From: Spirochaetota bacterium
Lineage (GTDB): Bacteria; Spirochaetota; Spirochaetia; Treponematales; UBA12059
Direction of reading: 5' to 3'
Assembly: GCA_018262985.1 (NCBI GenBank)
Contig: JADFDI010000015.1
Coordinates: 1 to 44,561 of the forward strand
Length of the DNA stretch: 44,561 nucleotides
Shown: one piece after another, positions 12,838 to 37,734 of the stretch
Layout: the number at the start of each line of letters is the position of its first letter
Position numbering within the stretch: position 1 is the stretch's first letter
Program-made: the position numbers and the translations under genes
The notes under the pieces: generated by a model
Database searches by the model: none
What the model was told of the DNA's origin: nothing
What the model saw: only the letters and a program-made list of their open reading frames with translations

Positions 12838-12840
12838 ACC

Positions 12841-23553: not shown

Positions 23554-24876
23554 CTAGCGGACCAGGGCGGATTCGAGGACTTCGGCGGCGGCGGCGAGCT
23601 CCTCGTCGGCGCCGGAGCGGCCGGCCGCCTGGAGGCCGAGCGGCATGCCCTCGAGCTTCTCTCCGGAGGGCAGCGCGATCGTCGGAACGCCCGCGTGGGT
23701 CCAGGGCAGGTTCATGACCGGGTCGCCGGTGGATTCGAGGCCGCGCGGAGCGGGTCCCGGCGCCGACGGCGAAATCCAGAAGTCCGCGCCCGCCAGCACG
23801 AGCGCGGCGTCGAGTTCCGCTCGAAGCCTGTCCTGACCCGCCCTGTCCGCCGCGAGCTCGTCGGCGCGGATCGCGCGCCCTCGCTCGATGAGGTCGATGG
23901 TACGCGCATGGTAGAGAGCGCGATGGGCGTCGAACCAGGACGCGTGCGTCGCGGCCATCTCGGCGGCCGCGATGCGCCGGTGCCGCGCGTTGACCTCGGC
24001 GACGTCGACCATGGCTTTCACCCGCAGCACGCGGAAGCCCCGGTCGGCGAGCCGGAGGAGCGAGCGTTCGAAAGCCTCGAGCGCGGCGGCCTCGGCCTGC
24101 GCGAGATAGGGGCCGTCGGGAACGAGCAGCACGGGAGGCGTGGCCTCGAAGCGGCGGACGGAGCGCGAAAAGGCTTCGGCATCCCATCCTGTATCGATCA
24201 GCGCCGCTCCGGCCGCCAAGGTCGCGGCGTCCGCGCCGATGAGTCCGACGTGGTCGAGCGAAGGCGCGAAGGGGACCAAGCCGTCCGCGGCCACCCGGCC
24301 GTGGGTCGGCTTCCAGCCCGACACGCCGCAGAAGGCCGCGGGCCGGGAAATCGAGCCGATGGTCTGGGTACCGAGGGCGAGCTCGCAGAAGCCGGCGGCG
24401 ACCGCGGCCGCGGAACCCGAGCTCGAGCCGCCCGGAGTGCGCGAAAGGTCGCGGGGGTTCCGCGTCGGACCCGGCGCGAAGTAGGCGAACTCCGTGGACA
24501 CGGTCTTGCCGAGCACGAGGGCGCCGGCCGCCTTGAGGGCGCGCGTCGCCGAGGCTTCCGGCATCCGGAACAGCTCGGGCGGGAGGCGAGAGCCCGCGCG
24601 GGTCTCGAAGCCGTCCGCGGAGAAAATATCCTTGACGCCGACCAGGCAGCCGAAGAGCGGCGGCCGCGCCGCGGGATCCGGCCAGCGCCGTTCGAGCGCG
24701 GCTGCCTCGGCGCGGAGGCGATCCGCCCGGCCCGGCTCGGGCAGCAAGGCGAGGATTTCAGGTTCGAAGGCCTCCATCCGAGCGAGCGCGAGTTCGACGC
24801 GCGCTCCGAGCGACGTCCCGCCGCGCCGCGCGCGCGCGGCGGCTCCAGCGATTCCCTCGGGCTCGGCGCGGTTCAT
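23554..24876 (-). CDS. Amidase signature family hydrolase
   Basis: A 440-residue amidase-signature enzyme hydrolysing an amide or ureido bond. The catalytic Ser-cisSer-Lys set is visible: Lys in VGVKDIFS, cis-Ser in GGSSSGSAAAVAAG and nucleophile Ser in GTQTIGSISRPA, where the usual GGS is IGS. There is no signal peptide. The ATG at 24876 overlaps the CoA-transferase stop as ATGA; the longer frame upstream is a shadow. It is the last gene of the Mo-hydroxylase operon. I infer it removes ammonia from malonamate or oxamate produced by the AllFGH-like enzyme. Ureidomalonase of oxidative pyrimidine breakdown is also an amidase-signature protein, so direct cleavage of ureidomalonate is an alternative. 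Confidence 0.87.
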   Translation of the reverse strand: MNRAEPEGIAGAAARARRGGTSLGARVELALARMEAFEPEILALLPEPGRADRLRAEAAALERRWPDPAARPPLFGCLVGVKDIFSADGFETRAGSRLPPELFRMPEASATRALKAAGALVLGKTVSTEFAYFAPGPTRNPRDLSRTPGGSSSGSAAAVAAGFCELALGTQTIGSISRPAAFCGVSGWKPTHGRVAADGLVPFAPSLDHVGLIGADAATLAAGAALIDTGWDAEAFSRSVRRFEATPPVLLVPDGPYLAQAEAAALEAFERSLLRLADRGFRVLRVKAMVDVAEVNARHRRIAAAEMAATHASWFDAHRALYHARTIDLIERGRAIRADELAADRAGQDRLRAELDAALVLAGADFWISPSAPGPAPRGLESTGDPVMNLPWTHAGVPTIALPSGEKLEGMPLGLQAAGRSGADEELAAAAEVLESALVR

Positions 24877-26069
24877 GAAGGCAACGCTCCGTCGGCCTTG
24901 AGGCGCGCGATCGCCTCGGCGCCCAGCCCGAGCACGCGCGCGAGCACCGCCTCCGTGTGCTCCCCGAGCTCCGGAGCGGCGGGACGCGTCGGCGACTCCG
25001 GGACGGTTTCCATCTTGACGGGATTGCCGGGAATGAGCACCGTGCCGCCCGTGCCGTCCGGAGCCTCGACGAGCATGTTTCGCGCGGCGAGCTGCCGGTC
25101 CTTCATCACCTTGTCGACGGACGCGACGGGAGCGGCCGGCACGCCCGCCGCCTCGAGGATGGCGACCCACTCGTCGGAGGTTTTCGTGACGAAGACGGCC
25201 TCGAGCTCGGGCGCGAGGAAGTGGAGGTTGCGCACCCGCTCCGCGTTGGTCCTGAAGCGCTCGTCCGCGAACAGGTCGTCCCGTCCGACGGCGGGGCAGA
25301 ACGCCTTCCAGAGCGCGTCGTTGCCCACCGCCACGGCGAACCAGGCGTCCGAGGCCTTGAAGGCCTGGAAGGGCGCGATGGTCGGATGGCGCGTGCCGAG
25401 GGGCTCGGGCGACTTGCCGTCAACCTGGAAACGGACCAGGGCGTTCTCGAGGATGGCCAGCTGGCAGTCGAGCATGGACACGTCGACCTTCTGCCCGCGG
25501 CCGGTTTCCTTCCGCTGGTAGAGCGCCGCGACGACGCCGACCGCGGCGAAGACCGCCGCGGTGATGTCGCCCATGGACAGCCCCACGCGCGTGGGCGGAG
25601 AGTCCGGCCAACCCGTGATGCTCATGACCCCGCCGCGGGCCTGCACGAGGATGTCGTAGGCGGGCTTCAGGGCGTCCGGCCCGGTATGGCCGAAACCAGA
25701 CACCGCGGCGTACACGAGCCTCGGGTTCGCCGCCTTGAGCACGTCCCAGCCGAGGCCGAGCTTCTCCATCGTTCCCGGCCGGAAGTTTTCGACGACGACG
25801 TCGCATTCCTTCGCCAGGTCGACGAGCAGCTTCTTGCCGGCCGCGTTCTTGAGGTCGACGCAGACCGATTCCTTGCCGCGGTTGACGTTGAGGAAGTAGA
25901 GGCTCTTCCCGTTGCGGAACGGCCCGAAATGCCGCGAGTCGTCGCCGACGACGGGAGCCTCGACCTTGACGATCTCGGCGCCGAGGTCGGACAGCATCAT
26001 GGTGCAGAAGGGTCCCGCGAGGACCCGGGTCAGGTCGAGGACGCGAATGCCCTCGAGCGGTTTCGGCAT
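24873..26069 (-). CDS. CaiB/BaiF-family CoA-transferase (class III)
   Basis: A 398-residue class III CoA-transferase (family of formyl-CoA:oxalate CoA-transferase, CaiB and BaiF), moving CoA between carboxylic acids. It begins LEGIRVLDLTRVLAGPFCTMMLSDLGAEIVKVE, the family opening. NRGKESVCVDLKN, VENFRPGTMEKLG and SGFGHTGP follow, and the catalytic Asp is probably in QKVDVSMLD. The ATG at 26069 has AAGGAGG six bases upstream. It is translationally coupled to the amidase. In this operon it is well placed to activate the dicarboxylate end product (malonate or oxalate) as a CoA ester. The actual acid cannot be read from sequence. Confidence 0.92.
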   Translation of the reverse strand: MPKPLEGIRVLDLTRVLAGPFCTMMLSDLGAEIVKVEAPVVGDDSRHFGPFRNGKSLYFLNVNRGKESVCVDLKNAAGKKLLVDLAKECDVVVENFRPGTMEKLGLGWDVLKAANPRLVYAAVSGFGHTGPDALKPAYDILVQARGGVMSITGWPDSPPTRVGLSMGDITAAVFAAVGVVAALYQRKETGRGQKVDVSMLDCQLAILENALVRFQVDGKSPEPLGTRHPTIAPFQAFKASDAWFAVAVGNDALWKAFCPAVGRDDLFADERFRTNAERVRNLHFLAPELEAVFVTKTSDEWVAILEAAGVPAAPVASVDKVMKDRQLAARNMLVEAPDGTGGTVLIPGNPVKMETVPESPTRPAAPELGEHTEAVLARVLGLGAEAIARLKADGALPS

Positions 26070-26123
26070 GGTGGCCTCCTTGTCGATAAGGGGCGGACGC
26101 TCGGGCGACCGGGATGAGAGGGC

Positions 26124-26153
26124 CCGGGAGGGAAGGCGCCCCTTCCCTCCCGG
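26124..26153. promoter_or_regulatory. Intercistronic hairpin in the cyclase-CaiB gap
   Basis: A perfect 13-bp stem (CCGGGAGGGAAGG with CCTTCCCTCCCGG, loop CGCC) sits in the 144-base gap of the operon. With no T-run it is more likely an mRNA processing or stabilising element, or a partial terminator, than a full stop. Confidence 0.5.
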
Positions 26154-26213
26154 ACGGATTCCCGCGCTCCCCGCCCCGCGCGCGCCGAGCGGCGGTTCGC
26201 GGGCCCGGTCGGA

Positions 26214-27086
26214 CTACTTCCGGCGGGCTTCTTCGTGGATCCAGGGGTTGAGGGCGCCGGCGACGTCGCCGAACTTGGTCAGCTTCGCCTTCGCCTTCTT
26301 CTCCATGAGCTTCTCGTAGCGCTCGTCCTCGACCATGGCCACGATGCGCGCGATGCTCGACTCGCCGTCGACGAAGCGCCAGGGGAAGCAGCCGATGGTC
26401 GCCCGCTGGTTGAGGAGCAGGTCCATGTCGCCGCCGAGGCACTCGGCGTGGATGATGTGCTCGTTGAACATCTCGATGTGCATGAGCTGGTACTTGTCGT
26501 CGGAGAAGTACTGGTCGAGGGACTTGCCGTACTTCTTCTGGAAGTGCGCGTCGCACTCCTTGGCCTGGCGGGGCATCCACTCGCGGATCTTGGTGTTCAT
26601 GGGGTGGTCGGCCGAGCCGCAGTCGACGCCGATCCAGCGGAGCTTCTTGCGCTTGGCCCACTCCGCGAACTCGCGGTCCGGCCCCGGGTGCTTGATCATG
26701 TAGCGGATCTCGTCGGCCGTGGGCTGGTCCCAGCCGTAGTGGTGGAAGCCCGTGTGGATGATGAGGATGTCGCCCTCCTTCACCTCCACGCGCTCCTCGA
26801 CCATCTTCGAGGTGTAGACGTCGTAGTCGCCGGCGACGTCGGAAAGGTCGACGATGGCGCCCTCGTGCACGAGGAAGTCCATGTCGAGGCTCGCGATGTC
26901 CTTGCCCGGCGTGTAGAAGTGGATCTCGCCGTCGAGGTGGGTGCCGATGTGGTTGGAGTGCGTGACCACCTGGCCGTTGGCGCCGTTGGGCGCGAGGCGC
27001 TTGAAGTACTTGACCTCGAGCGGCTCGTAGGTGGGCCAGGGCGGGGTGCCGATGCCGAGGGGAATGGTCAGGTCGATCATCTTCAT
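26214..27086 (-). CDS. Cyclase-family metal-dependent hydrolase (PF04199)
   Basis: A 290-residue member of the cyclase/kynurenine-formamidase/isatin-hydrolase family, metal enzymes that hydrolyse amide bonds including cyclic ones. The motif is HIGTHLDGEIH (His46, His50, Asp52, His56), a variant of HxGTHxDAPxH with GE replacing AP. A second conserved region is WIGVDCGSADHPMN, and EMFNEHIIHAE carries the usual Glu and His near the C-terminus. It is longer than typical KynB (about 210) owing to a charged C-terminal tail. The ATG at 27086 lies behind TAGGAGG. It is the only ring-opening candidate in the operon, so I infer it opens the cyclic product of the Mo hydroxylase. Confidence 0.85.
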   Translation of the reverse strand: MKMIDLTIPLGIGTPPWPTYEPLEVKYFKRLAPNGANGQVVTHSNHIGTHLDGEIHFYTPGKDIASLDMDFLVHEGAIVDLSDVAGDYDVYTSKMVEERVEVKEGDILIIHTGFHHYGWDQPTADEIRYMIKHPGPDREFAEWAKRKKLRWIGVDCGSADHPMNTKIREWMPRQAKECDAHFQKKYGKSLDQYFSDDKYQLMHIEMFNEHIIHAECLGGDMDLLLNQRATIGCFPWRFVDGESSIARIVAMVEDERYEKLMEKKAKAKLTKFGDVAGALNPWIHEEARRK

Positions 27087-27100
27087 ATTGAACCTCCTAA

Positions 27101-27133
27101 ACGAAGAAAACACAGTGGCATAGAGACACGGAG
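27101..27133. repeat. Decayed copy of the CTTCGTG-type intergenic repeat
   Basis: CGAAGAAAACACAGTGGC followed by AGAGACACGGAG reads on the minus strand as CTCCGTGTCT...TCTTCG, recalling the arms at 594-666. It lies in the 85-base spacer between the DUF1116 and cyclase genes, which is less GC-rich than its surroundings. Confidence 0.35.
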
Positions 27134-27171
27134 AATGGCGAATGGGGAAGCGTAATCCAGGGAACCGCTCG

Positions 27172-28596
27172 TCATGCATACCTCTCCGCGAAGGCGATTA
27201 CGGCGTCCCTGAATACGTTCTCCGGAGGTTTGACGAGGCCGGCGCCGACCATGCCGACGCCGGGCTCCTTGTGCGCGATGCCGGTGTTGATGGCGGGCAG
27301 GATGCCCGTCTCCACGACCTTGCGCGCGTCGATGCCGGTCGGGGTGCCGCGGAAGTCGAGGGCCGGGATGCGGTACTGCTCGCTCTCCGCGAGCGTGATC
27401 TCGTACATGCGCAGGGTGACGTCGATGGCGTCCGCCGGCGAGCCGCCCACGAACTTGACGATGGCGGGCGCGGCCGCCATGGCGAAGCCGCCGATGCCGG
27501 AGGTCTCGGTGATGACCGAGTCGCCGATGTCGCGCGCGGCGTCCGCGGCCGTGAAACCGGGCAGGTAGAGGCCCTCGACCACGCTCGCGGGACCCGTGAA
27601 CCAGCGTCCGGGCAGGCCCGAGAGCCGGATGCCGAACTCGGTGCCGTTCCGCGCCATGGTGGTGATGACGGTGGATCCCTCGATGCCGGCGGCCGCGTCG
27701 ACGGCGCACTTGGCCGAGGGCATGGTGAGGTTCAGGAAGAAGTGGTCGTTGGCGTTGAGGAAGGCGAGCGCCTTCGAGATCTCCGACTTAGGCGCGTCGA
27801 CCATGACCAGGTGCGGCGCGAGCTCCCGGATGATGGTCGAGGTGCCGGCGCGGTTGCGGTTGTGTCCTTCGTCGCCCATCTGGAGCACCTGCGCGATGAC
27901 CGTCGTCATGTCGATCGGGCCGCGCATCTTGAGCGCCTCGGCGAGGATGGGGGCGAGCGAGTCGCGCATCCACGAAAGGCGCTCCTGGACCTCGTCGCCG
28001 TAGGCGCCGTAGCGCAGCACCTTGCCGAGGCCCTCGTTGAGCGTGCAGTACGCGCGGTTGCCGAAGGCCTTGTTCTCGACGATCCACACGGGCATCGAGG
28101 CGGTCATGACGCCCGCCATGGGGCCGACCGAATCGTGGTGGTGGCAGGAATCGAACTCGATCTCGCCGGAGGCGGCGAGCGCCTCGGCTTCGGCCGGAGT
28201 CTTCGCGAGGCCCTCGTGGATGAGACCTCCCATGACGGCCCCGCGCATCGGGCCCGACATGTCCTTCCAGGCGACGGGCGGGCCGGCGTGCAGGACGAGT
28301 TTCCGGTGCATGCCGGGCACGACGTCCTTCGCGACGCCAATGCCGACCACGGTGGGCTTGGCCGCGAGGATGCGGCGAACCGACTCGGCGTTGGCCGCGT
28401 CCACGTCGACGCGGGCGCGCGAGGCGATGCGGTCGAGCGCCGCGATGGCGCGGACGTCTCCGCCGGCCGGCGGCTTCCACTCCACGTGCGCGACGGGGGC
28501 GCCTTCGCGCGCGAGCGAGGCGGCGAATTTCTCGAGGCCGAGGTTCAGGACCTTCGGACCCTCGGCGAACAGCGAATCGAGGGGTCTGGCGCTCAC
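27172..28596 (-). CDS. allG: DUF1116 protein, AllG/YlbE-like carbamoyltransferase subunit
   Basis: A 474-residue DUF1116 protein, homologous to E. coli YlbE (AllG), one of three subunits reported for oxamate carbamoyltransferase (oxalurate + Pi giving oxamate + carbamoyl phosphate). Family features seen are the opening PKVLNLGLEKFAASLA, VEWKPPAGGD, MTASMPVWIVENKAFGNRAYCTLNEG and FHLNLT-like FFLNLTMPSAKCAVDAA. The start is a GTG at 28596 whose GTGA overlaps the FdrA-like gene's stop, with GGAGG upstream. Its neighbours FdrA and DUF2877 are the other two subunits, so the complete set is present. The true ureido substrate here may differ from oxalurate. Confidence 0.9.
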   Translation of the reverse strand: MSARPLDSLFAEGPKVLNLGLEKFAASLAREGAPVAHVEWKPPAGGDVRAIAALDRIASRARVDVDAANAESVRRILAAKPTVVGIGVAKDVVPGMHRKLVLHAGPPVAWKDMSGPMRGAVMGGLIHEGLAKTPAEAEALAASGEIEFDSCHHHDSVGPMAGVMTASMPVWIVENKAFGNRAYCTLNEGLGKVLRYGAYGDEVQERLSWMRDSLAPILAEALKMRGPIDMTTVIAQVLQMGDEGHNRNRAGTSTIIRELAPHLVMVDAPKSEISKALAFLNANDHFFLNLTMPSAKCAVDAAAGIEGSTVITTMARNGTEFGIRLSGLPGRWFTGPASVVEGLYLPGFTAADAARDIGDSVITETSGIGGFAMAAAPAIVKFVGGSPADAIDVTLRMYEITLAESEQYRIPALDFRGTPTGIDARKVVETGILPAINTGIAHKEPGVGMVGAGLVKPPENVFRDAVIAFAERYA

Positions 28597-30233
28597 CGTG
28601 CGCCTCCTTTCGCGGAGCTTCCGCGGGCGGCCGCCTTCGCGATTTCCACCGCGAGCAGGGCGGCGCGCCGGTTCGAGGGCATGACGACGACGCCGGCGGC
28701 CTCGAGCTTCGCGACCTGGGCGCCGTAGCCCTGGGGGTCGGCTCCCGTGCCGATGACGGACGCGACCACCGGCAGGTAGCCGCCACGCGCCGCCGCGGCG
28801 GCCCGCGCCCCGGCGATCGCCTCGAGCGAGGCGCCCGCCGGGTCGTCGTGCGAGCCGTAGCCGAGCACCACGTCGAGGAGCAGGACGGCGGTCGACGGGT
28901 CCTTCCCTTCCTCCACGATGCGCGCGTTGCGCTGCGAGGGGTCGATCATCGGGTGCGGCTTCCCGACCGTGAACGCGTCGTCCCCGAGGTCGACTATCGT
29001 GTGGCCTTCGGAAATGCGCGGGTCGGCCAGGACGAGGGAAGGGTCGGTCTGGTTGTTGGACCGGACCTGGCCGAGGGCGGCGTCAGCGATGAAGAGGGCC
29101 TCGTCGGCGACGGTGCCGCCCGCGTAGAGGCCGCGGAGGAATTTCTGCCCGGGCGCGAGGCGGGCGGCTTCGCGCCCGGCAAGCTCGCCGACCCCCTGCG
29201 CGGCCTCGGCGTCCAGGCGCGCGCGGACTGCGGCGGCGGCCGCCATGCGCGCCGCGGCGTCGGCGCCATTCTTCGCGAAAGCCGCGGCGAGCGCGGCGGC
29301 TTCCTCGAGGCTGGCGGCGTGGTAGACGGGATCCCGGTCGGCGGGCCGGTCCTTCAGCCCGAGGAAGTGCGCCACCGCGGGCTTTCCGCCGCGCTCGAGG
29401 GCGGCGACGACCTTGGCGGCAGTCTCGGGCGCGGGCGGCTTCGACACCACGAGCAGTACCTTGGTCTCCGGGTCCCGCTCGAGGCCCTCGATGGCGAGGA
29501 GGCTCGTCATGCCGCCGACCTTCGCGTTCTTGAGGTCGCGGCCGCCGCAGCCGATGGCCTGCGAGACGCCGACCCCGGCGCGGTCGACGAGGCAGGAGAC
29601 TTCCTGCAGGCCCGTCCCGGATGCCGCCACGATGCCCACCGGGCCGCGGGCGACGACGTTGGCGAAGCAGAGCGGCTTGCCGCCGATGATGGCGGTGCCG
29701 CAGTCGGGCCCCATGAGGAGGAGCCCCTTCGACGCGGCGAGCGTTTTGAGCGCGATCTCGTCCTCGAGGCTGACGTTGTCGGAGAAGACCATGACGTGGA
29801 GGCCGCGCTCGAGGGCGAGGCGGGCCTCGCGGGCCGCGTAGGCGCCGGGCACCGAGACGATGGCCAGGTTCGCCTCGGGCAGCAGCTTGAGCGCGCCGGC
29901 GGTCGAAGCCGCGCGCGGGTAGGCCTGTCCTGCCTGCGCGGCCGGTCCCTTCTTCTTCGTGACCAGGTCGATCGCGAGCGCGATCGCCTTTTCCGCGGCC
30001 GCGGCGTCAGCGCAGTCGACGGCCACGACCAGGTCGCCGGGCCCGGCCGACGCGAGCGCCCCCCCGCCTTCCGCGGAGCCGTAACCGAGCCCGGTCAGCA
30101 GCTCGAGGTTCATCGGCGTGCCCATGGCCACCACCGCGCCGTCGACGCCCTCCGTCCCCTCGAGCTCGCGCGTGGCGAGCATGAGGAACACCGAGTCGTA
30201 ATAGGCGTCCTTCCGTACCAGTATCCGTTTCAT
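28593..30233 (-). CDS. allF: FdrA/AllF-like carbamoyltransferase subunit
   Basis: A 546-residue FdrA-family protein built like a succinyl-CoA synthetase: an N-terminal FdrA-specific part (KRILVRKDAYYDSVFLM, then VVAMGTPMNLELL), a Rossmann-like region and the nucleotide or phosphate loops MGPDCGTAIIGGKPLCFAN and GIVAASGTGLQEVSC, then a C-terminal domain with VLLLDVVLGYGSHDDPAG. E. coli FdrA (AllF) belongs to oxamate carbamoyltransferase in anaerobic allantoin breakdown. The ATG at 30233 has a weak Shine-Dalgarno. It is 28 bases after the DUF2877 gene and overlaps the DUF1116 gene. No carbamate kinase follows in the window. Confidence 0.91.
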   Translation of the reverse strand: MKRILVRKDAYYDSVFLMLATRELEGTEGVDGAVVAMGTPMNLELLTGLGYGSAEGGGALASAGPGDLVVAVDCADAAAAEKAIALAIDLVTKKKGPAAQAGQAYPRAASTAGALKLLPEANLAIVSVPGAYAAREARLALERGLHVMVFSDNVSLEDEIALKTLAASKGLLLMGPDCGTAIIGGKPLCFANVVARGPVGIVAASGTGLQEVSCLVDRAGVGVSQAIGCGGRDLKNAKVGGMTSLLAIEGLERDPETKVLLVVSKPPAPETAAKVVAALERGGKPAVAHFLGLKDRPADRDPVYHAASLEEAAALAAAFAKNGADAAARMAAAAAVRARLDAEAAQGVGELAGREAARLAPGQKFLRGLYAGGTVADEALFIADAALGQVRSNNQTDPSLVLADPRISEGHTIVDLGDDAFTVGKPHPMIDPSQRNARIVEEGKDPSTAVLLLDVVLGYGSHDDPAGASLEAIAGARAAAAARGGYLPVVASVIGTGADPQGYGAQVAKLEAAGVVVMPSNRRAALLAVEIAKAAARGSSAKGGAR

Positions 30234-30261
30234 CCGTACCGCCTTCGCGATCGTACTAGGT

Positions 30262-31251
30262 TCATGGTCGACGCCGAACGCTCCCGTCCCGCCCTAAGCG
30301 GCGGAGGAAGCCGAGCAGGGCGTCCGCCCCGGAGCTGGCCCCGTGGCGGAACGCCTCGTCCATGGCCGCGTCCAGCGCGGCCTGGTCCGTCGAAGCGTCT
30401 CTCGCGGGCGTCGCGGGCTCGGACCGAGCCGTGACGGCCGCGGAAAACGCCTCCGCGAAAAGAAGAAGGTAGGCCGGGAAGCAGCCCGAGCGCGCGCCCA
30501 GGAGCAGGGCGCGTCCCGCGGCCGTCGTGCGGCCCAGTTCCGCATCCCCGATGGTAACGCCCTCGCGGCCCGAAAGTCTCGCGGCGAGCAGCCATCCGGC
30601 GATAAAATCGTCTCCGGCCGGGGTGGTGCCGGGTCCGAAGCCCGCGAGGTTCCGCGGGAAATCCGAAGCTTCCGCGAGCTCGGCGAAGCGAAGCGCGAAC
30701 GGGCCCGCGCCGTGGATGCCCTCTCGCGGGGCGCGCTCCGCGAACGCGCGTTCGACCGCGTCGAGCGCCTGGTCGAAGGCCGTCCCGGACTCCGGCGCTC
30801 CCGCCGCGCCGAGGCGCCGCTCCGCGGCCCCGAGGCGCGCTTCCGCGTCCCACGCGGCGAAATCGAGCGGCCACGCGCGGACGAGGCTGCCCGAGGGACC
30901 GAGAAGCTCGAGCCCCGTCGGCGCCAGGCCGATCCGGAAGCCCTCCGTACCCCGACGGAGCGCGCCGGCGAGCTCGCCGAACGCTTCCGCTCCGACGGCG
31001 ACGGCCCTGGCCTCCATCGAGCGTTCATCCGCCACGATCGAGACCAGGGCCCCGTCGGGGTGCGCGAGCGACACCGCGCGCGGGAAGGCGCCGACCGCGG
31101 GAGCCGTCCAGGGCGCCTCCGGCACCAGCGGGCCTACGAGCGCGGTCGGGTGCGCGGGGCCGCCGCCTCCCGGAGGAAGCGAAGGCCGGCGCGGCCCGAG
31201 GGCGCCGCGCCGGCCGGACGATCCGCGGGACGACCCGCGAACCTCGGTCAC
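30262..31251 (-). CDS. allH: DUF2877 protein, AllH/YlbF-like carbamoyltransferase subunit
   Basis: A 329-residue DUF2877 protein, homologue of E. coli YlbF (AllH), third subunit of the oxamate carbamoyltransferase system. The diagnostic motif GFGPGTTPAGDDFIAGWL is around residue 210. The N-terminal 60 residues are Gly/Pro/Arg-rich and weakly conserved, so the exact start is the least certain part. I chose the GTG at 31251 because GAGG lies six bases upstream and it begins nine bases before the permease stop is cleared, in the same operon. A longer reading frame runs back through the permease and Mo-subunit genes and is a shadow. Confidence 0.85.
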   Translation of the reverse strand: MTEVRGSSRGSSGRRGALGPRRPSLPPGGGGPAHPTALVGPLVPEAPWTAPAVGAFPRAVSLAHPDGALVSIVADERSMEARAVAVGAEAFGELAGALRRGTEGFRIGLAPTGLELLGPSGSLVRAWPLDFAAWDAEARLGAAERRLGAAGAPESGTAFDQALDAVERAFAERAPREGIHGAGPFALRFAELAEASDFPRNLAGFGPGTTPAGDDFIAGWLLAARLSGREGVTIGDAELGRTTAAGRALLLGARSGCFPAYLLLFAEAFSAAVTARSEPATPARDASTDQAALDAAMDEAFRHGASSGADALLGFLRRLGRDGSVRRRP

Positions 31252-31259
31252 TTGCAGCC

Positions 31260-32510
31260 TCAGCCCTCGGCCGAGGTAGCGTCCTTCGGCCTGAGGATCA
31301 GGTTGAGAAGGATGCCGGCGATGGCCGCGAGGCCGAGGCCGGAGAGCTTGAAGTTGCCGAACGCGAAGGTCGCGCCGCCCAGGCCCAGGACGAGCATGGT
31401 GGCGGTGATGATGAGCAGCTTGGCGTTCGAGAGGTTGACCCTGGCGTCCACCATGTTCTTGATGCCGATCGACGAGATCATGCCGAAGAGCAGGATGGAG
31501 ATGCCGCCGATGACCGGCCCGGGGATGGTGCCGATCAGCGCCGTGAACTTCGGGATCATGGCGAGCGCGATGGCGAAGGTCGCGGCGATGCGCATGATGA
31601 CCGGGTTGAACACGCCGGTCAGGGCGACCGCGCCGGTGTTCTCGGAGTAGGTAGTGTTCGCGGGGCCGCCGATGAGGCCCGCCACCGAGGTCGCGATGCC
31701 GTCGCCCCAGAGCGTGCGGGTGATGCCCGGGTCCTTGATGAAATCCTTGCCGACCACGTTGCCGATGGCCAGCACGTCGCCGAAGTGCTCGACCATGGTG
31801 ACGATGGCGATGGGCACCATGACGCTGATGGCCTCGACGGAGAACTTGGGCAGGGTGAATTTCGGGATGCCGATCCAGGCGGCCTCGGAGACCGAGGTGA
31901 AGTCGATGAGGCCGAGCAGCGCCGCGAGGACGTACCCGGCGACGAGCGAGATGAGGACGGGGAGGTTCGAGAGGAACTTCCAGCCGAACTTCGGGAAGGC
32001 GATCTTGACGAACACGCCAACCGCGAAGGTGAAGAGCGCGATGCCCCAGGCGCCGTTGACGCCGATCGCGTCGACGATGGGCTTTGAGAAGTCGCCCTTG
32101 GCGTTCTGGACGGCGACCGGCGCCAGGATGAGGCCGATGAGGATGATCATCGGGCCGGTGACGTGGGCGGGCAGGATCTTGTGCAGGTGCTCGTACGAGA
32201 CGAACTTGAAGATCGTGCCGACCACGACGTAGAGCAGGCCCGCGACGACGATGCCGCCGAGCGCGTAGGGCAGGCCCTGGCTGGCGCCGACCGCGATCAG
32301 GCCGGGGATGAAGGCGAAGGAGCTTCCGAGGAAGACCGGCACCTTGAACCCGGTCAGGATGTGGAAGATCCACGTTCCGACGCCGGCCGCGAAAAGCGTC
32401 ACGCCGACGTCGAGCCCCGTGAGTATCGGGACGAGCACGGTCGCCCCGAACATGACGAACGTGTGCTGGAGTCCCATCACCACGTTCTTTCCGGTCAGAT
32501 TCTTTTCCAC
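31260..32510 (-). CDS. NCS2-family uracil-type permease
   Basis: A 416-residue membrane protein with about 14 hydrophobic segments, of the nucleobase:cation symporter-2 family. The substrate-site motifs are of the uracil type: VEHFGDVLAIG (Glu in TM8) and GGPANTTYSENTGAVALT (TM10), matching UraA/PyrP TTYxEN. Xanthine and urate carriers instead show a QN motif at TM10. The start is a GTG at 32510 behind GGAGG. It lies between the Mo-hydroxylase and carbamoyltransferase genes and should import the operon's substrate, which I take to be uracil or a related pyrimidine. Confidence 0.92.
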   Translation of the reverse strand: MEKNLTGKNVVMGLQHTFVMFGATVLVPILTGLDVGVTLFAAGVGTWIFHILTGFKVPVFLGSSFAFIPGLIAVGASQGLPYALGGIVVAGLLYVVVGTIFKFVSYEHLHKILPAHVTGPMIILIGLILAPVAVQNAKGDFSKPIVDAIGVNGAWGIALFTFAVGVFVKIAFPKFGWKFLSNLPVLISLVAGYVLAALLGLIDFTSVSEAAWIGIPKFTLPKFSVEAISVMVPIAIVTMVEHFGDVLAIGNVVGKDFIKDPGITRTLWGDGIATSVAGLIGGPANTTYSENTGAVALTGVFNPVIMRIAATFAIALAMIPKFTALIGTIPGPVIGGISILLFGMISSIGIKNMVDARVNLSNAKLLIITATMLVLGLGGATFAFGNFKLSGLGLAAIAGILLNLILRPKDATSAEG

Positions 32511-32567
32511 GAAAGCCTCCTTCGCAGAACTCCCCCGCCGCGTCGCGGCCGGTATGCTCGAGGGCGC

Positions 32568-32589
32568 GCGCGGAGCCTCGGCTCCGCGC
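32568..32589. promoter_or_regulatory. Intercistronic hairpin between Mo subunit and permease genes
   Basis: A 9-bp perfect stem (GCGCGGAGC with GCTCCGCGC, loop CTCG) lies in the 117-base gap. It has no T-run. Together with the hairpin at 26124 it marks the two widest gaps of the operon. Confidence 0.45.
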
Positions 32590-32627
32590 CTCCCCTTTCG
32601 CCGCTTCCCGTTCCTTCCCTTCCCCGC

Positions 32628-35057
32628 TTATTTTTTCTCCACCGGCGCCGAGCGGCAATGCCCCGTCGGCGACTTGGTGATCCAGTTGTCGATGGGCTCG
32701 CGCGCGTTGAGCGCCCGCCAGACGTCCTCGAAGCGGATGGGCATGTGGACGATTTCCGCCCCGCTCGCCTTCTGGATGGCGTTGCCCAGCGCGGCCGCCA
32801 CCGAGATCATCGAATGTTCGCCCACGCCGCGCGCGCCGTAGGGCCCGTCGAGCTGGGGCGTCTCGACCACGTAGGCCTCCACCTCGAGCGGCAGGTCCTT
32901 GGCGGTCGGGATCTTGTTGTCGGTGAAGGACGGGTTGAGGAGGCGTCCGTCCTTGTCGTAGACGTAGCCCTCGCAGGTGGCCGTGCCGAGGCCCTGGAGC
33001 ATGCCGCCGATGGCCTGGCCGCGCACGATCTCGGGGTTGATGGCCTTGCCGACGTCGTAGACCGAGGCGATCTTGAGCACCCGGTACTCGCCGGTTTCCG
33101 GGTTGACCTCGACCGTCATGCCGTGGGCGCCGTAGGTCCAGTCGAGGGCCGGCGAGCCCTCGCCGGTTTCCTTGTCGAGGAAGGTCAGGCCCTGGGCGAT
33201 GTAGCGGCCGACGCCGACGAGCGGGCCGCCGACGCCGTTGCCGTTCTCCATGGCGAGCCCGACGGCCATGGCCGCGAAACGCACCGCCCTGGCGGGATTG
33301 TGCTTGAGGTAGACCTTCTCGCCGTCGTGGGCGAGGTCGCACTCCTGCGCGCGGAGGGCCCGCGCCGCGGTGTCGTACGCGTTCCGGAGCAGGTCCTCGG
33401 CCGCGAGGATGGCGGCGTTCCCCGAGAGGAGCAGGCCCTTCGACGCGACGGTCTGCCAGTCGTAGGGGTCCTTGTCGGTGTCGCACTCGAAGCTGACCTT
33501 GACCTTCTCGAGCGGGAAGCCGAGGCGCTCCGCGACGATCTGGCGGATCGAGGTGTAGGTGCCCTGGCCGTAATCGGTCAGCGCGAGGTTCACCGTCACC
33601 GTGCCGTCCTCGTTCATCTTGAGGAAAACCGCGGTGGCCGTGTACGAAGGCATGGCCGGCGCCTTCTGGAGCGCCGCCACGCCCTTGCCGATCTTCCAGC
33701 CGGTCTTTTTCTCGCGCTCGGCTTCCGCGGGAGTCAGCTTCCCGTAGCCGATCGAAGCGGCGGCCTTGTCGATGCACTTGAGAACGTTGCCCGTGTGGGT
33801 CGTGATCTCCTCGCCCGTGAGCGTCTTCGAGCCGGGGCGGAGCGCGTTCCTCCGGCGGAACTCGAGCGGGTCCATGCCGATGGCCTCGGCCACCAGCTCC
33901 ATGTGGCGCTCGAGCGCCCAGTGGAACTCGACGTGGCCGAAGCCGCGGTAGGCCGTGCCGTAGGGCTTGTTCGTGTAGATGGTGTACGAATCGACCTTGG
34001 CGTTCGGAATCTCGTAGGGACCGGAGGCGGAGTAGCCGGACGCGCGCGTCACGTTGACGGCGTAGTCGGCGTAGGCGCCGGAGTCCCAGTAGAGCGTCAT
34101 CTCCTGGGCGAGGATCTTGCCCTCCGGGGAAACGCCGGTCTTGAGGCGATAGGTCAACGCCGAGCGGCAGGGCAGGAGGCTGAACTCCTCCTCGCGTGTC
34201 GCCTGGAACTTGACGGGACGGCCGCCCGCCGCGCGCGAGAGCACCGCGACGAGGGGCTCGACGCCGATGCCGGCCTTGCCGCCGAAGCCGCCGCCGACGT
34301 AGGGGATGTGCACGCGGACGTTGTTGTGCGGCAGCTTGAAGGCCACGCACATGAGGTTGCGCACCGTGAAGGGCGACTGGGCGCTCGTCCAGACCGTGAC
34401 GCGGTCGCCGCGCTCCCACTTGGCGATGGCGACGTGGGTCTCCATCGGCACGTGCTGGACCGAGGGGCAGGAGTACTCGCGCTCGATTATCCACTCGGAG
34501 GCCGCGAAGCCGAGCTCGGTGTCGCCCTTGCGGAGCTTCGTGAGATTGGCGACGTTGGTGCCCGGCTGCGGCGAGAAGGCCGCCGCCATGTACGCGTAGC
34601 TCCCCAGGTCGGGGTGGACCAGCGGCGCGTCGGGCTTGAGCGCGTCCATGTGGTGGAGTATTGGCTTGAGGACCTCGTACTCGACCTCGATGGCGTCCGC
34701 GGCGGCCCTCGCCTGCATGAGCGTGTCGGCGGCGACCGCGGCCACGGCCTCGCCGTAGTGGCGCACCTCTCCGCGCGCCAGGATACGCTTGTCCACGACG
34801 TAGAGGCCGAGCCGGTAGTCGAGCTCGTCGCCCGTGAGGACGGCGCGCACGCCCGGCATGGCGCGCGCCGTGGAAGTGTCGATGCGGACGATGCGCGCGC
34901 GGGCGTGGGGGCTCTTCTTGAGCTGGGCGTGGAGCATGCCCGGGAGGCTCATGTCCGAGACGTAGGTGGCGGCTCCGGTCAGCTTCTCGAGGTCGTCGGT
35001 GCGCTCCGGCGACTTTCCGACCACCGCTAGCTCGGAAGGCTTCTTCTCACTCAACAT
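32628..35057 (-). CDS. Xanthine dehydrogenase-family hydroxylase, molybdopterin-binding subunit
   Basis: An 809-residue catalytic subunit of a xanthine-dehydrogenase-family enzyme. These hydroxylate a carbon beside a ring nitrogen, using water as the oxygen source. Motifs in order: TGAATYVSDM near the N-terminus, TSAQSPF (Moco Gln), GGGFGGK, AYRGFG (the Arg matching the substrate-binding Arg of xanthine dehydrogenase), DYGQGTYTSIRQI and the catalytic base Glu in GARGVGEHS. RGFG rather than RGAG points to a purine- or pyrimidine-like heterocycle instead of an aldehyde or CO. The ATG at 35057 overlaps the 2Fe-2S gene by 11 bases. In context I propose hydroxylation of uracil to barbiturate; xanthine or another azaheterocycle is possible. 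Confidence 0.92.
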   Translation of the reverse strand: MLSEKKPSELAVVGKSPERTDDLEKLTGAATYVSDMSLPGMLHAQLKKSPHARARIVRIDTSTARAMPGVRAVLTGDELDYRLGLYVVDKRILARGEVRHYGEAVAAVAADTLMQARAAADAIEVEYEVLKPILHHMDALKPDAPLVHPDLGSYAYMAAAFSPQPGTNVANLTKLRKGDTELGFAASEWIIEREYSCPSVQHVPMETHVAIAKWERGDRVTVWTSAQSPFTVRNLMCVAFKLPHNNVRVHIPYVGGGFGGKAGIGVEPLVAVLSRAAGGRPVKFQATREEEFSLLPCRSALTYRLKTGVSPEGKILAQEMTLYWDSGAYADYAVNVTRASGYSASGPYEIPNAKVDSYTIYTNKPYGTAYRGFGHVEFHWALERHMELVAEAIGMDPLEFRRRNALRPGSKTLTGEEITTHTGNVLKCIDKAAASIGYGKLTPAEAEREKKTGWKIGKGVAALQKAPAMPSYTATAVFLKMNEDGTVTVNLALTDYGQGTYTSIRQIVAERLGFPLEKVKVSFECDTDKDPYDWQTVASKGLLLSGNAAILAAEDLLRNAYDTAARALRAQECDLAHDGEKVYLKHNPARAVRFAAMAVGLAMENGNGVGGPLVGVGRYIAQGLTFLDKETGEGSPALDWTYGAHGMTVEVNPETGEYRVLKIASVYDVGKAINPEIVRGQAIGGMLQGLGTATCEGYVYDKDGRLLNPSFTDNKIPTAKDLPLEVEAYVVETPQLDGPYGARGVGEHSMISVAAALGNAIQKASGAEIVHMPIRFEDVWRALNAREPIDNWITKSPTGHCRSAPVEKK

Positions 35058-35535
35058 GGCCGAGCCCTCCCTTCTCCGCGGCGCGCCCGGTCAGGTCGAG
35101 CACCGCCTCGACGATCTGCGTGTACCCCGTGCAGCGGCAGAAGTTCCCCTCGATGGCTTCCTTGATCTCGTCGACCGAGGGCTTTTCGTTGTCGCGGAGC
35201 AGCTCCTTGACCGACATGACCATGCCCGGCGTGCAGAAACCGCACTGGACCGAGTGGTTCCGTTCGAAAGCCTGCTGGATCTCGGACAGCTCCGGTCCCT
35301 TCGACTCGCCCTCGACCGTGTCGACCGTGGCGCCGTCGGCCTCGACCGCGAGCACCATGCAGGAGTTGACCGCGCGGCCGTTCAGGAACACCGTGCACGC
35401 GCCGCATTCGCCCATGCCGCAGCCTTCCTTCGGCCCCGTGATCCCGAGGTCCTCGCGGAGGAAGCGGAGCAGGGTGCGGTTCTCCGCCACCTCGCGCTCG
35501 TAGGCCTCGCCGTTCACCTTCACCTGAATACGCAT
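35047..35535 (-). CDS. Xanthine dehydrogenase-family hydroxylase, 2Fe-2S subunit
   Basis: A 162-residue iron-sulfur subunit carrying electrons from the Mo centre to FAD. The plant-ferredoxin-type cluster is EGCGMGECGACTVFLNG plus a later Cys (NSCMV). The second cluster is QCGFCTPGMVMS with NFCRCTGY. Length is typical of separate small subunits (CoxS, XdhC, NdhS). The ATG at 35535 begins one base after the stop of the FAD subunit gene, and its end overlaps the Mo subunit gene, so the three subunits are made in fixed order. Confidence 0.95.
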   Translation of the reverse strand: MRIQVKVNGEAYEREVAENRTLLRFLREDLGITGPKEGCGMGECGACTVFLNGRAVNSCMVLAVEADGATVDTVEGESKGPELSEIQQAFERNHSVQCGFCTPGMVMSVKELLRDNEKPSVDEIKEAIEGNFCRCTGYTQIVEAVLDLTGRAAEKGGLGHVE

Positions 35536-35536
35536 C

Positions 35537-36343
35537 TTACACGCCCTCCGCGAGCAGGCGGCGCACGTAGACGCCGATCATGAATTCCCGGTACTCCTTC
35601 GTGGCGCGCACGTCGGAAATGGGGGAACAGGCCGCGAGCACCTTCGCCGCTGCCTCGTCGGGCGCGACGCCCTTCCGGAGCCCCGTCACGAGCACGGGCG
35701 TCGGGGCGGCCGAGCTGACCGCGAAGGAGAGAGCGCCGTCCTTCTCCAGCATGAGCACGCCGACGATGCCGAGGTCGTGGCCGTTGATCCGCTTCAATTT
35801 GAGGTAGCGCCCTTTCGCTCCCGCGCTCGCGGCGGGAATGACGACCTTCTCGAGGAACTCGCCCTTCTCGAGGCGGGTCTTCTTCGGCCCCGCGAAGAAG
35901 CGGTCGAAGGGCAGCTCGCGCGCGCCCGTCTTCGAGCGGACTATGGCGCGGGCTCCGAGGCAGAGCAGGGCGGGCGCGGTGTCGGAACAAGGCGAGGCGT
36001 TCATCACGTTTCCGACCACGGTGGCGCGGTTCCGCACCTGGTGGCTCGCGAGCTCGTGGACGCAGGCGCAGAAGGCCGGGTAGCGCTCGCGCGCGTCGCG
36101 GTCGCGGAGCACGTCGTTGAGCGTCACGGCCGGACCGAATTCGAGCCCCTCGGCGCCGTAGGCGATGCGTCCCGCGTCGGGCAGCTTCTTGACGTCGACC
36201 ACGAGGCGCGGCTTGAAGACGCCGTTGCGGACGTTCGGCAGGAGATCGGTGCCGCCCGCGAGCAGCATGGCTCCCTCGCCTTCGATCAAGTCGAGCAGTT
36301 CAGGCGCCGTGCGGGGCGCCGCGTACCGGAAATCATGGAGCAC
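35537..36343 (-). CDS. Xanthine dehydrogenase-family hydroxylase, FAD-binding subunit
   Basis: A 268-residue FAD subunit (CoxM/XdhB type) passing electrons to NAD+ or another acceptor. FAD motifs are LLAGGTDLLPNVRNG (around 28-42) and ATVVGNVMNASPCSDTAPAL (around 108-127); VSSAAPTPV is near the C-terminal domain. There is no extra 4Fe-4S insertion. The start is GTG at 36343, six bases after GGGGAGG. It is the first gene of the ten-gene operon and lies about 80 bases from a well-formed promoter. Confidence 0.92.
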   Translation of the reverse strand: MLHDFRYAAPRTAPELLDLIEGEGAMLLAGGTDLLPNVRNGVFKPRLVVDVKKLPDAGRIAYGAEGLEFGPAVTLNDVLRDRDARERYPAFCACVHELASHQVRNRATVVGNVMNASPCSDTAPALLCLGARAIVRSKTGARELPFDRFFAGPKKTRLEKGEFLEKVVIPAASAGAKGRYLKLKRINGHDLGIVGVLMLEKDGALSFAVSSAAPTPVLVTGLRKGVAPDEAAAKVLAACSPISDVRATKEYREFMIGVYVRRLLAEGV

Positions 36344-36455: not shown

Positions 36456-36522
36456 GTGAAAGATTCCTTCATCTTCCTTGCGGGACAGGACACGCGAGCT
36501 CCCGCGGGGGTATAAGAGGAGC

Positions 36523-37734
36523 ATGGAAACCGCCACGCACGGCCGCGCGGCCTGGGCGCTCGCGCGCTACGCCCTGCTCGGCCTCTTCTCGTTCTCGCTG
36601 ACCGCCATCGGTCCGATGGCCCCCGCGCTCCGGTCCGAATTCGGCCTTTCCTACACCCTCGCGGGGCTCCACCAGACCGCCTTCGCCCTCGGCATGGTGG
36701 CCACCGGGCTCTTCGGGGGCCCCCTCATCGAGCGCTGGGGGCTCGCCCGCTCGATGTGGGGCGGCATGCTCGTCATGCTCGCGGGCGAGGCCGTCCTGTC
36801 CCTCGCGCCCTCGGTCGCCTTCACGCTCGGCGGCATCCTCGTCGCCAGCCTCGGCGCCACGCTCTCGATGTCCGCCGTCCAGGCCTCGCTGGCCGCCGAG
36901 CCCGCCGAACGCCGCAGCCGCATGATATTGGAAGGCAACATGACCGCGAGCGCCGTCTCGATGGTCGTGCCCCTCGTCCTGCTCGCGGGCACGCGACTCG
37001 GCCTCGGCTGGCGGATAGTCGGCCCCGTCGCCGCCCTCGCCTTCCTCGCCATCGCGGGCCTCGGGCTCAGGCACACCCCGCCCGACGCCGCCCCCCGGAA
37101 GCCCGGCCCCCTCGCCCCTGGCTCCGTCCCCGACGCCGGACCCGCCCGCCCGCGGACGGCGCCGAGGCTCGGCGCGGCCTACGCCCGCATGTGGCTCGCG
37201 CTCTTCCTCGGCGTCGCGGTCGAGTGGGCCATCGGCTTCTGGGCCATGAGCTACATCCTCGAAAAGCCCGGTTCCGGCCCCGCCTTCGCCTCGGCGGCCG
37301 TCGCGGGGCTCGGCCTCGCCGCCGTGCTCGCGCGCTTCGTCGCGAGCCGCCTCGGGCACCGGCTCGGCGAAGGCCGCTCGCTCGCGCTCTCCTTCGCCCT
37401 CGCCCTCGCGGGCTTCCCCCTCTACTGGCTCGCGCCTTCGCCGCTCGCCGCGGCCGCGGGGCTCTTCGTCTCGGGCTTCGGCGCCGCCAACCTCTACCCC
37501 CTCGCCTTCTCGCTCGCGGTGTCGCGCGCGCCCCACGCCCTCGCACGCGCGAGCGCCCTCGTCCCCGTCGCCTCCGGCAGCGCCATCGGCCTCGCCCCCT
37601 TCCTGCTCGGCCGGCTCTCCGACGCCGTCGGCATGAAGGCCGCGCTCCTCTCGGTGCCGATCGGCGCCCTCCTCGCCTTCGCCCTCCTCGCGTACGACCG
37701 CGCCGCCCTGGCGCGCGAACGGGGACGGAGCTGA
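36523..37734 (+). CDS. Major facilitator superfamily transporter
   Basis: A 403-residue MFS carrier with twelve hydrophobic segments and a Pro/Gly-rich loop at about 190-215 between the halves. The loop 2-3 motif is reduced (GGPLIERWGLARSMWG) but in place. The closest general resemblance is to sugar/drug-type MFS permeases; the substrate is unknown. The ATG at 36523 is preceded by AAGAGGAG, and the longer frame from 36478 has no ribosome-binding site. It is divergent from the Mo-hydroxylase operon, sharing 180 intergenic bases, and could export or import a related compound, but there is no direct evidence. The coding end runs into a GC-rich tandem repeat. Confidence 0.88.
   Translation: METATHGRAAWALARYALLGLFSFSLTAIGPMAPALRSEFGLSYTLAGLHQTAFALGMVATGLFGGPLIERWGLARSMWGGMLVMLAGEAVLSLAPSVAFTLGGILVASLGATLSMSAVQASLAAEPAERRSRMILEGNMTASAVSMVVPLVLLAGTRLGLGWRIVGPVAALAFLAIAGLGLRHTPPDAAPRKPGPLAPGSVPDAGPARPRTAPRLGAAYARMWLALFLGVAVEWAIGFWAMSYILEKPGSGPAFASAAVAGLGLAAVLARFVASRLGHRLGEGRSLALSFALALAGFPLYWLAPSPLAAAAGLFVSGFGAANLYPLAFSLAVSRAPHALARASALVPVASGSAIGLAPFLLGRLSDAVGMKAALLSVPIGALLAFALLAYDRAALARERGRS

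Follow-up and report, generated by a model that had tools for sequence, protein, structure and literature searches.

A conserved ten-gene operon of Spirochaetota as a candidate phosphorolytic pathway for oxidative pyrimidine degradation

Results

The stretch of DNA analyzed here (the window) comprises all 44,561 nucleotides examined of contig JADFDI010000015.1 from a Spirochaetota bacterium (assembly GCA_018262985.1; host genome of 3.44 Mb, 99.8% complete, in which the stretch is contig C6), and its minus strand carries, at positions 23554-36343, a ten-gene operon that on balance probably encodes a phosphorolytic, oxidative pathway for pyrimidines (uracil and/or thymine) in an anaerobe. In the proposed scheme the base would be imported by an NCS2 permease and oxidized to (methyl)barbiturate by a three-subunit molybdenum (Mo) hydroxylase, after which a cyclase-family metal hydrolase would open the ring to yield (methyl)ureidomalonate. 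An AllFGH-type complex would then use phosphate to split this acylurea into (methyl)malonamate and carbamoyl phosphate, thereby replacing the hydrolytic step of the aerobic pathway; a malonamidase-type amidase would release ammonia from (methyl)malonamate, and a CaiB-type coenzyme A (CoA) transferase would convert the resulting (methyl)malonate to its CoA thioester. Two further activities would be supplied from elsewhere in the host genome, namely a carbamate kinase forming ATP from carbamoyl phosphate and a Na+-pumping methylmalonyl-CoA decarboxylase acting on the thioester, the latter being encoded within the operon itself in two related loci (L073 and L099). Gene content and its conservation, the types of amidase and permease, and the linkages in relatives are features of the sequences themselves, and every substrate and product named here is our proposal.

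An earlier note on this DNA, prepared from the sequence alone, had described ten minus-strand genes as one operon, and searches with Pfam and NCBIfam profiles recover all ten in the same order:

35537..36343, minus strand: molybdenum hydroxylase flavin adenine dinucleotide (FAD) subunit, coxM/XdhB type (PF00941, FAD_binding_5, 154.9 bits)
35047..35535, minus strand: molybdenum hydroxylase [2Fe-2S] subunit (PF01799, 105 bits, and PF00111; Fer2/Fer2_2)
32628..35057, minus strand: hydroxylase molybdopterin subunit (PF02738/PF20256/PF01315; MoCoBD_1/2)
31260..32510, minus strand: NCS2 nucleobase permease, uracil-permease-like, with the motif TTYSENTG (Xan_ur_permease; best PDB match UraA)
30262..31251, start uncertain, minus strand: AllH-like (DUF2877) subunit (PF11392, 49 bits, cut-off 25)
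28593..30233, minus strand: AllF-like (FdrA) subunit (Ligase_CoA; NCBIfam FdrA, 515 bits, cut-off 433)
27172..28596, minus strand: AllG-like (DUF1116) subunit (PF06545, 335 bits)
26214..27086, minus strand: cyclase-family metal hydrolase, the proposed ring opener (PF04199, 105.8 bits)
24873..26069, minus strand: CaiB-type (family III) CoA-transferase (PF02515, CoA_transf_3, 450 bits; best PDB match YfdE, 367 bits)
23554..24876, minus strand: amidase-signature hydrolase, malonamidase E2-like (best PDB match malonamidase E2, 148 bits)

Trimming placed the start of the cyclase at the ATG at 27086 and that of the amidase at the ATG at 24876, the latter overlapping the CaiB stop codon. The AllH/DUF2877 gene lies in the frame of a long open reading frame (30262-34494) and most likely starts at the GTG at 31251; homologues provided this frame, and placements at 30230-30874 or 30294-31028, which gave no Pfam match, were discarded. 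Since neighbouring genes abut or overlap (intergenic distances from about -11 to 144 bases) and AGGAGG-like sites stand before several of them, it is plausible that all ten form a single transcription unit.

Relatives within the family and the phylum carry the same set in collinear order (L021, L026, L032, L033 and L039-L041), so that its grouping is not due to chance, and it is near-complete in L025, L029 and L049. A first search among relatives covered 59 genomes, of which 19 have AllG. When the AllG protein was scanned against 84,980 genomes, the best 80 loci returned spanned Spirochaetota, Bacillota, Thermotogota, Chloroflexota, Atribacterota, Bipolaricaulota, Myxococcota and others. Most of the 94 non-duplicate loci examined share an FdrA-AllG-cyclase core, which extends to Clostridia, Thermotogae, Chloroflexi and further phyla; FdrA is seen in 91 of them, the cyclase in 84, the Mo hydroxylase in 56, the NCS2 permease in 46, CaiB in 35 and carbamate kinase in 11, all of which are lower bounds, many contigs being short. 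PucR regulators accompany 22 related loci. A close cyclase occurs in 14 of 296 Spirochaetota genomes drawn as a sample, and the system is therefore scattered rather than universal in the phylum. Cultured anaerobes with the cluster include Anaerotruncus colihominis DSM 17241, Clostridium magnum and Maledivibacter halophilus. Clostridial loci (L080, L082-L086, L094 and L110) contain genes that by sequence resemble YqeB, MocA, XdhC and MoeA, hinting at a selenium-type Mo hydroxylase. Gut loci of Lachnospiraceae type (L108, L109, L111 and L116) combine AllFGH, the cyclase, a cytosine-deaminase-like amidohydrolase, NCS2 and carbamate kinase, with neither Mo hydroxylase nor CaiB; these loci resemble yahEFGIJ of Escherichia coli.

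The amidase bears directly on the diacid end of the proposed pathway. Among solved structures, its nearest relatives are without exception malonamidase E2 (148 bits, against 132 for GatA; 164 vs. 139 when repeated with an orthologue), and the alignment retains the Ser/cis-Ser/Lys signature together with an equivalent of Arg158 (motifs VGVKD, GGSSSGS and GSISRPA), the latter within GTQTIGSISRPA. In malonamidase E2, Arg158 binds the carboxylate. Arg occupies the position in 13 of 13 readable Spirochaete-type operon copies and neither in merely nearby amidases (L034, L055, L068 and L071) nor in AtzE or AtzF; one deposited form of malonamidase E2, u12446, aligns there with Gln. The Bradyrhizobium enzyme, which hydrolyzes malonamate to malonate and ammonia (PMC8393822), shares the Lys, Ser and Arg158 positions, but similarity to it is moderate (148 bits) and the amidase described here sits in a catabolic operon. 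Together, these features lend residue-level support to cleavage of malonamate by the amidase, a step that the earlier note had suggested.

The fate of the diacid is further illuminated by linkages in relatives. In L073 and L099, MmdA, OadG, a biotin carrier and OadB are encoded in a row inside an FdrA-AllG-cyclase operon (OAD_gamma and Biotin_lipoyl profiles; Na_pump_decarbB in L073), and in L090 and L105 the alpha subunit, MmdA, follows a CaiB-amidase pair, which in L105 is preceded by a MatC/CitMHS-type carrier. The earlier note had proposed looking for a linked carbamate kinase or malonyl-CoA decarboxylase, and related loci display a carbamate kinase as well as a (methyl)malonyl-CoA decarboxylase, the latter being complete in L073 and L099. 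Because the scored MmdA representative (L105, 848 bits) falls below the curated methylmalonyl cut-off of 998.8, the substrate may be either malonyl- or methylmalonyl-CoA. Outside the operon, the host genome encodes a complete Na+-pumping decarboxylase beside methylmalonyl-CoA mutase and MeaB. The carbamate kinase, in turn, is found within the 11 related loci counted above and not in the studied operon, and the host has one on contig C2. It is important to note that finding carbamate kinase or MmdA somewhere in a relative's genome was not counted as evidence on its own, since relatives without AllG have both.

Gln at the position of the Glu in the ENxG motif is typical of xanthine and urate carriers; in the permease, Glu is found in 37 of 37 readable operon copies. 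UraA is the best PDB match, scoring 234 bits where the uric acid-xanthine permease scores 59, and NCBIfam rates the operon permease at 336 bits as a uracil permease, under the equivalog cut-off of 477, and at 226 bits as pbuX. These features mark a uracil-type permease. The hydroxylase is complete in its three subunits, with the catalytic Glu (ARGVGEHSM) intact; the equivalent of Arg880 is kept and the position of Glu802 is Ala, as in nearly all operon copies (residue numbers are those of bovine xanthine dehydrogenase, XDH). No xanthine dehydrogenase equivalog cut-off in NCBIfam is reached by it (XdhA, 491 bits vs. 780).

The cyclase is about 60% identical between spirochaetes and clostridia and its H-x-G-T-H-x-D metal motif is invariant. 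Foldseek places isatin hydrolase, a ring-opening enzyme, as its top match, which we treat as supporting only given a weak AlphaFold model (predicted local distance difference test score, pLDDT, of 67). The AtzD family (PF09663), which contains the classical barbiturase, was found neither in the host genome nor in 22 relatives, an absence that is incompletely proven as no control genome was positive. Other contexts of the cyclase were also inspected: a Halorussus vallis plasmid (L139) encodes a Mo hydroxylase, the cyclase, CaiB, a thiolase, an OB protein and two xanthine-type permeases, with no AllFG in the stretch shown, and the uninformative context in Rhodococcus ruber includes no Mo hydroxylase. 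In L084, CaiB is followed by a cytosine/purine permease and a cytosine-deaminase-like gene; we initially took such deaminase-like genes as a pyrimidine-specific marker and have downgraded them, the family being present in an atrazine cassette as well.

The PF11392, FdrA and PF06545 subunits are adjacent (27172-31251), and AllF and AllG are 41% and 48% identical to their E. coli counterparts, which belong to an acylurea carbamoyltransferase proven on oxalurate/oxamate (PMC11326118). The studied stretch has no match to AllB, AllC, AllD or AllE, and weak AllB/AllC-type matches appear in a few loci (e.g., L034, L097 and L113). Urease is found neither in the host genome nor in the 22 relatives, with control genomes positive, which argues against a urea route and agrees with a similar argument made for urease-negative enterics (PMC11326118).

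Homologues of the complex also occur with other ring openers. On conjugative plasmids of the atrazine type, fdrA, DUF1116, an AtzD-family ring-opening amidohydrolase and carbamate kinase follow one another in this order (Aminobacter pSR8, L142, 5969-11062; Klebsiella SB610, L137, 5969-11061), as they would in the same module equipped with another opener; the cassettes differ from the studied operon in that opener and, over the stretches read, in having neither hydroxylase nor CoA-transferase. Their gene order suggests that a combination of ring opener, AllFG and carbamate kinase recurs and that the plasmids may confer phosphorolytic use of cyanurate or biuret. Because they pair AllF-AllG with an AtzD-family opener and carbamate kinase, they also support by analogy a general role for AllFGH homologues on the products of cyclic-ureide opening. 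A Peptoclostridium acidaminophilum plasmid (L136, 6745-17348) carries PucR, two permeases annotated as xanthine permeases, a biuret-hydrolase-like gene, AllH, FdrA, AllG and carbamate kinase, without the cyclase, and in nitrifiers allFGHK lie near triuret/biuret genes (PMC12625717).

Many loci have a different lower end. One protein of 228 residues that belongs to no Pfam family, here called c10 (L062, 12359-13042, and 24 homologues), is encoded in 23 of the loci spanning 13 kb or more and CaiB in 28 of them, and no locus of this size has both. A Fisher test of CaiB against c10 is inflated by relatedness, and we counted switches on the cyclase tree instead: CaiB and c10 alternate along it, and its well-supported branches require a minimum of six changes. 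A thiolase and a small OB/zinc-ribbon protein usually come after c10, and 19 of the 20 loci with a thiolase have c10. The AlphaFold model of c10, which is of good quality (pLDDT 90.8), resembles GNAT acyltransferases. Given this mutual exclusion, the alternation and the GNAT-like model, c10 probably takes over the work of CaiB plus amidase, either by itself or together with the thiolase, and speculatively by CoA-dependent cleavage of malonamate.

Elsewhere in the window, a major facilitator superfamily (MFS) transporter gene (36478-37731, plus strand) diverges from the start of the operon, and a pair of genes for an MBOAT acyltransferase and a DHHW protein, alginate-acetylation-like, lies at 11410-14271 on the plus strand.

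Discussion

The earlier note had read the operon as a phosphorolytic pyrimidine pathway in which every gene has a role. The assignment of roles holds, with uracil or thymine as the candidate base; the pathway itself is partly supported by the linkages, the amidase residues, the uracil-type permease and the absence of urease and of an oxalyl-CoA decarboxylase above cut-off, and we still infer the action of the hydroxylase on uracil or thymine, of the cyclase on barbiturate and of AllFGH on ureidomalonate. Several observations weigh against it. The hydroxylase, whose pyrimidine substrate is putative, is below every equivalog cut-off, and as no AtzD-family enzyme was found, in a search that had no positive control genome, ring opening would depend on a cyclase of putative substrate. 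The neighbours of a 50% identical cyclase in Halorussus include a dihydropyrimidinase-like gene and a permease of the xanthine type, and since this cyclase sits with that permease and without AllFG in the stretch shown, the family may open rings other than barbiturate. The cytosine-deaminase-like family (seven loci) is shared with atrazine cassettes and so is not pyrimidine-specific. Clostridial copies have different amidases, a CN-hydrolase, or neither; the amidases near CaiB in L088, L090 and L105 belong to another subfamily, without the Arg158 equivalent. CaiB, finally, is nearest to YfdE, an oxalate-type CoA-transferase, and scores 400 bits against the NCBIfam CoA:oxalate CoA-transferase model (cut-off 522).

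Some of these points would fit a purine or other N-heterocycle, with hydroxylase and cyclase acting on the purine or a derived cyclic ureide, AllFGH cleaving the acylurea or ureido product, and CaiB and amidase handling a different acid. The hydroxylase family does include xanthine dehydrogenases, PucR regulators are common to 22 loci, and both the Halorussus set of Mo hydroxylase, cyclase and CaiB and the Peptoclostridium AllFGH genes, the latter beside a biuret-hydrolase-like gene, keep company with xanthine-type or xanthine-annotated permeases. Permeases of the studied type are nonetheless uracil-like, with Glu rather than Gln in the motif, nearly every operon copy has Ala where XDH has Glu802, and malonamidase and MmdA indicate a C3/C4 diacid; reductive uric acid pathway genes (PMC12507026) were not systematically searched. 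We consider a purine or other N-heterocycle pathway of this kind unlikely.

A shorter acylurea is also conceivable: a hydantoin-like compound would be oxidized to parabanate, opened by the cyclase to oxalurate, split by AllFGH into oxamate and carbamoyl phosphate, and carried on via oxalate (amidase) to oxalyl-CoA (CaiB). Both the proven substrates of the E. coli complex (PMC11326118) and the YfdE-like CaiB with its oxalate-type NCBIfam match speak for such a route. Yet the amidase is malonamidase E2-like with Arg158, relatives' operons contain (methyl)malonyl-CoA decarboxylase subunits, the permease is uracil-like, and no oxalyl-CoA decarboxylase scores above cut-off in the 23 genomes (host and 22 relatives), one control genome being above it, which argues against the oxalate route; we regard it as quite unlikely. 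Nitrogen scavenging alone, with ring opener and AllFGH acting on a triazine or biuret-like compound, finds support in the Aminobacter and Klebsiella plasmids and the nitrifier loci (PMC12625717) and appears very improbable, as Mo hydroxylase, CaiB, malonamidase and cyclase are all missing from the cassette stretches read and a triazine would leave CaiB and the decarboxylase without a carbon diacid to act on.

The oxidative pyrimidine pathway is known from aerobes and classically yields urea: in Rhodococcus and Nocardia, uracil/thymine dehydrogenase and barbiturase are followed by ureidomalonase, which converts ureidomalonate to urea and malonate. The pyrimidine pathway proposed here shares with it the order of oxidation to barbiturate, opening to ureidomalonate and malonate as end product, and differs in its cyclase-family hydrolase instead of an AtzD-family barbiturase, in AllFGH phosphorolysis in place of hydrolysis to urea, and in its CoA-transferase tail and anaerobic lineages. 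As the barbiturase family was not found, it would be a variant of oxidative pyrimidine degradation and not a member of the Rhodococcus type. With E. coli AllFGH/AllK (oxamic transcarbamylase and catabolic carbamate kinase) it has all three subunit families in common, as well as the carbamate kinase linked in relatives; here, however, allantoin genes are absent, the cyclase is nearly always and the Mo hydroxylase usually present, and the proposed acylurea is one carbon longer. In E. coli yahEFGIJ, genes for DUF2877, FdrA, DUF1116, a carbamate kinase-like protein and an amidohydrolase similarly follow one another, but no cyclase, hydroxylase, CaiB or malonamidase is annotated in the stretch read and the annotation gives no function. 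A parallel logic is seen in the reductive uric acid pathway of E. coli (YgeW/YqeA), where an XDH homologue, a carbamoyltransferase and carbamate kinase provide ATP from a ureide (PMC12507026), although the carbamoyltransferase is of another family, the chemistry is reductive and the substrate is a purine. Four routes of pyrimidine breakdown are listed as known, namely the reductive, oxidative, Rut and URC pathways (PMC12507026), and we found no description of the cluster or of a phosphorolytic pyrimidine pathway in the open literature, subscription papers being mostly outside our coverage.

A broader and decidedly doubtful extension would be that anaerobes widely ferment pyrimidines by a route in which AllFGH serves as an acylurea phosphorylase and in many loci the GNAT protein replaces amidase and CoA-transferase, turning malonamate (or the acylurea) and CoA directly into malonyl-CoA by a reversed acyltransferase reaction that feeds the Na+-pumping decarboxylase or the thiolase. 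The presence of the cluster in cultured anaerobes makes the proposed pyrimidine pathway directly testable. If it is correct, functions would be provided for a conserved cyclase family, for many AllFGH homologues outside allantoin metabolism and for a GNAT family that has no Pfam model, and anaerobes would be able to make ATP by way of the urea carbon of uracil or thymine, while the three carbons that remain might provide a sodium gradient as well.

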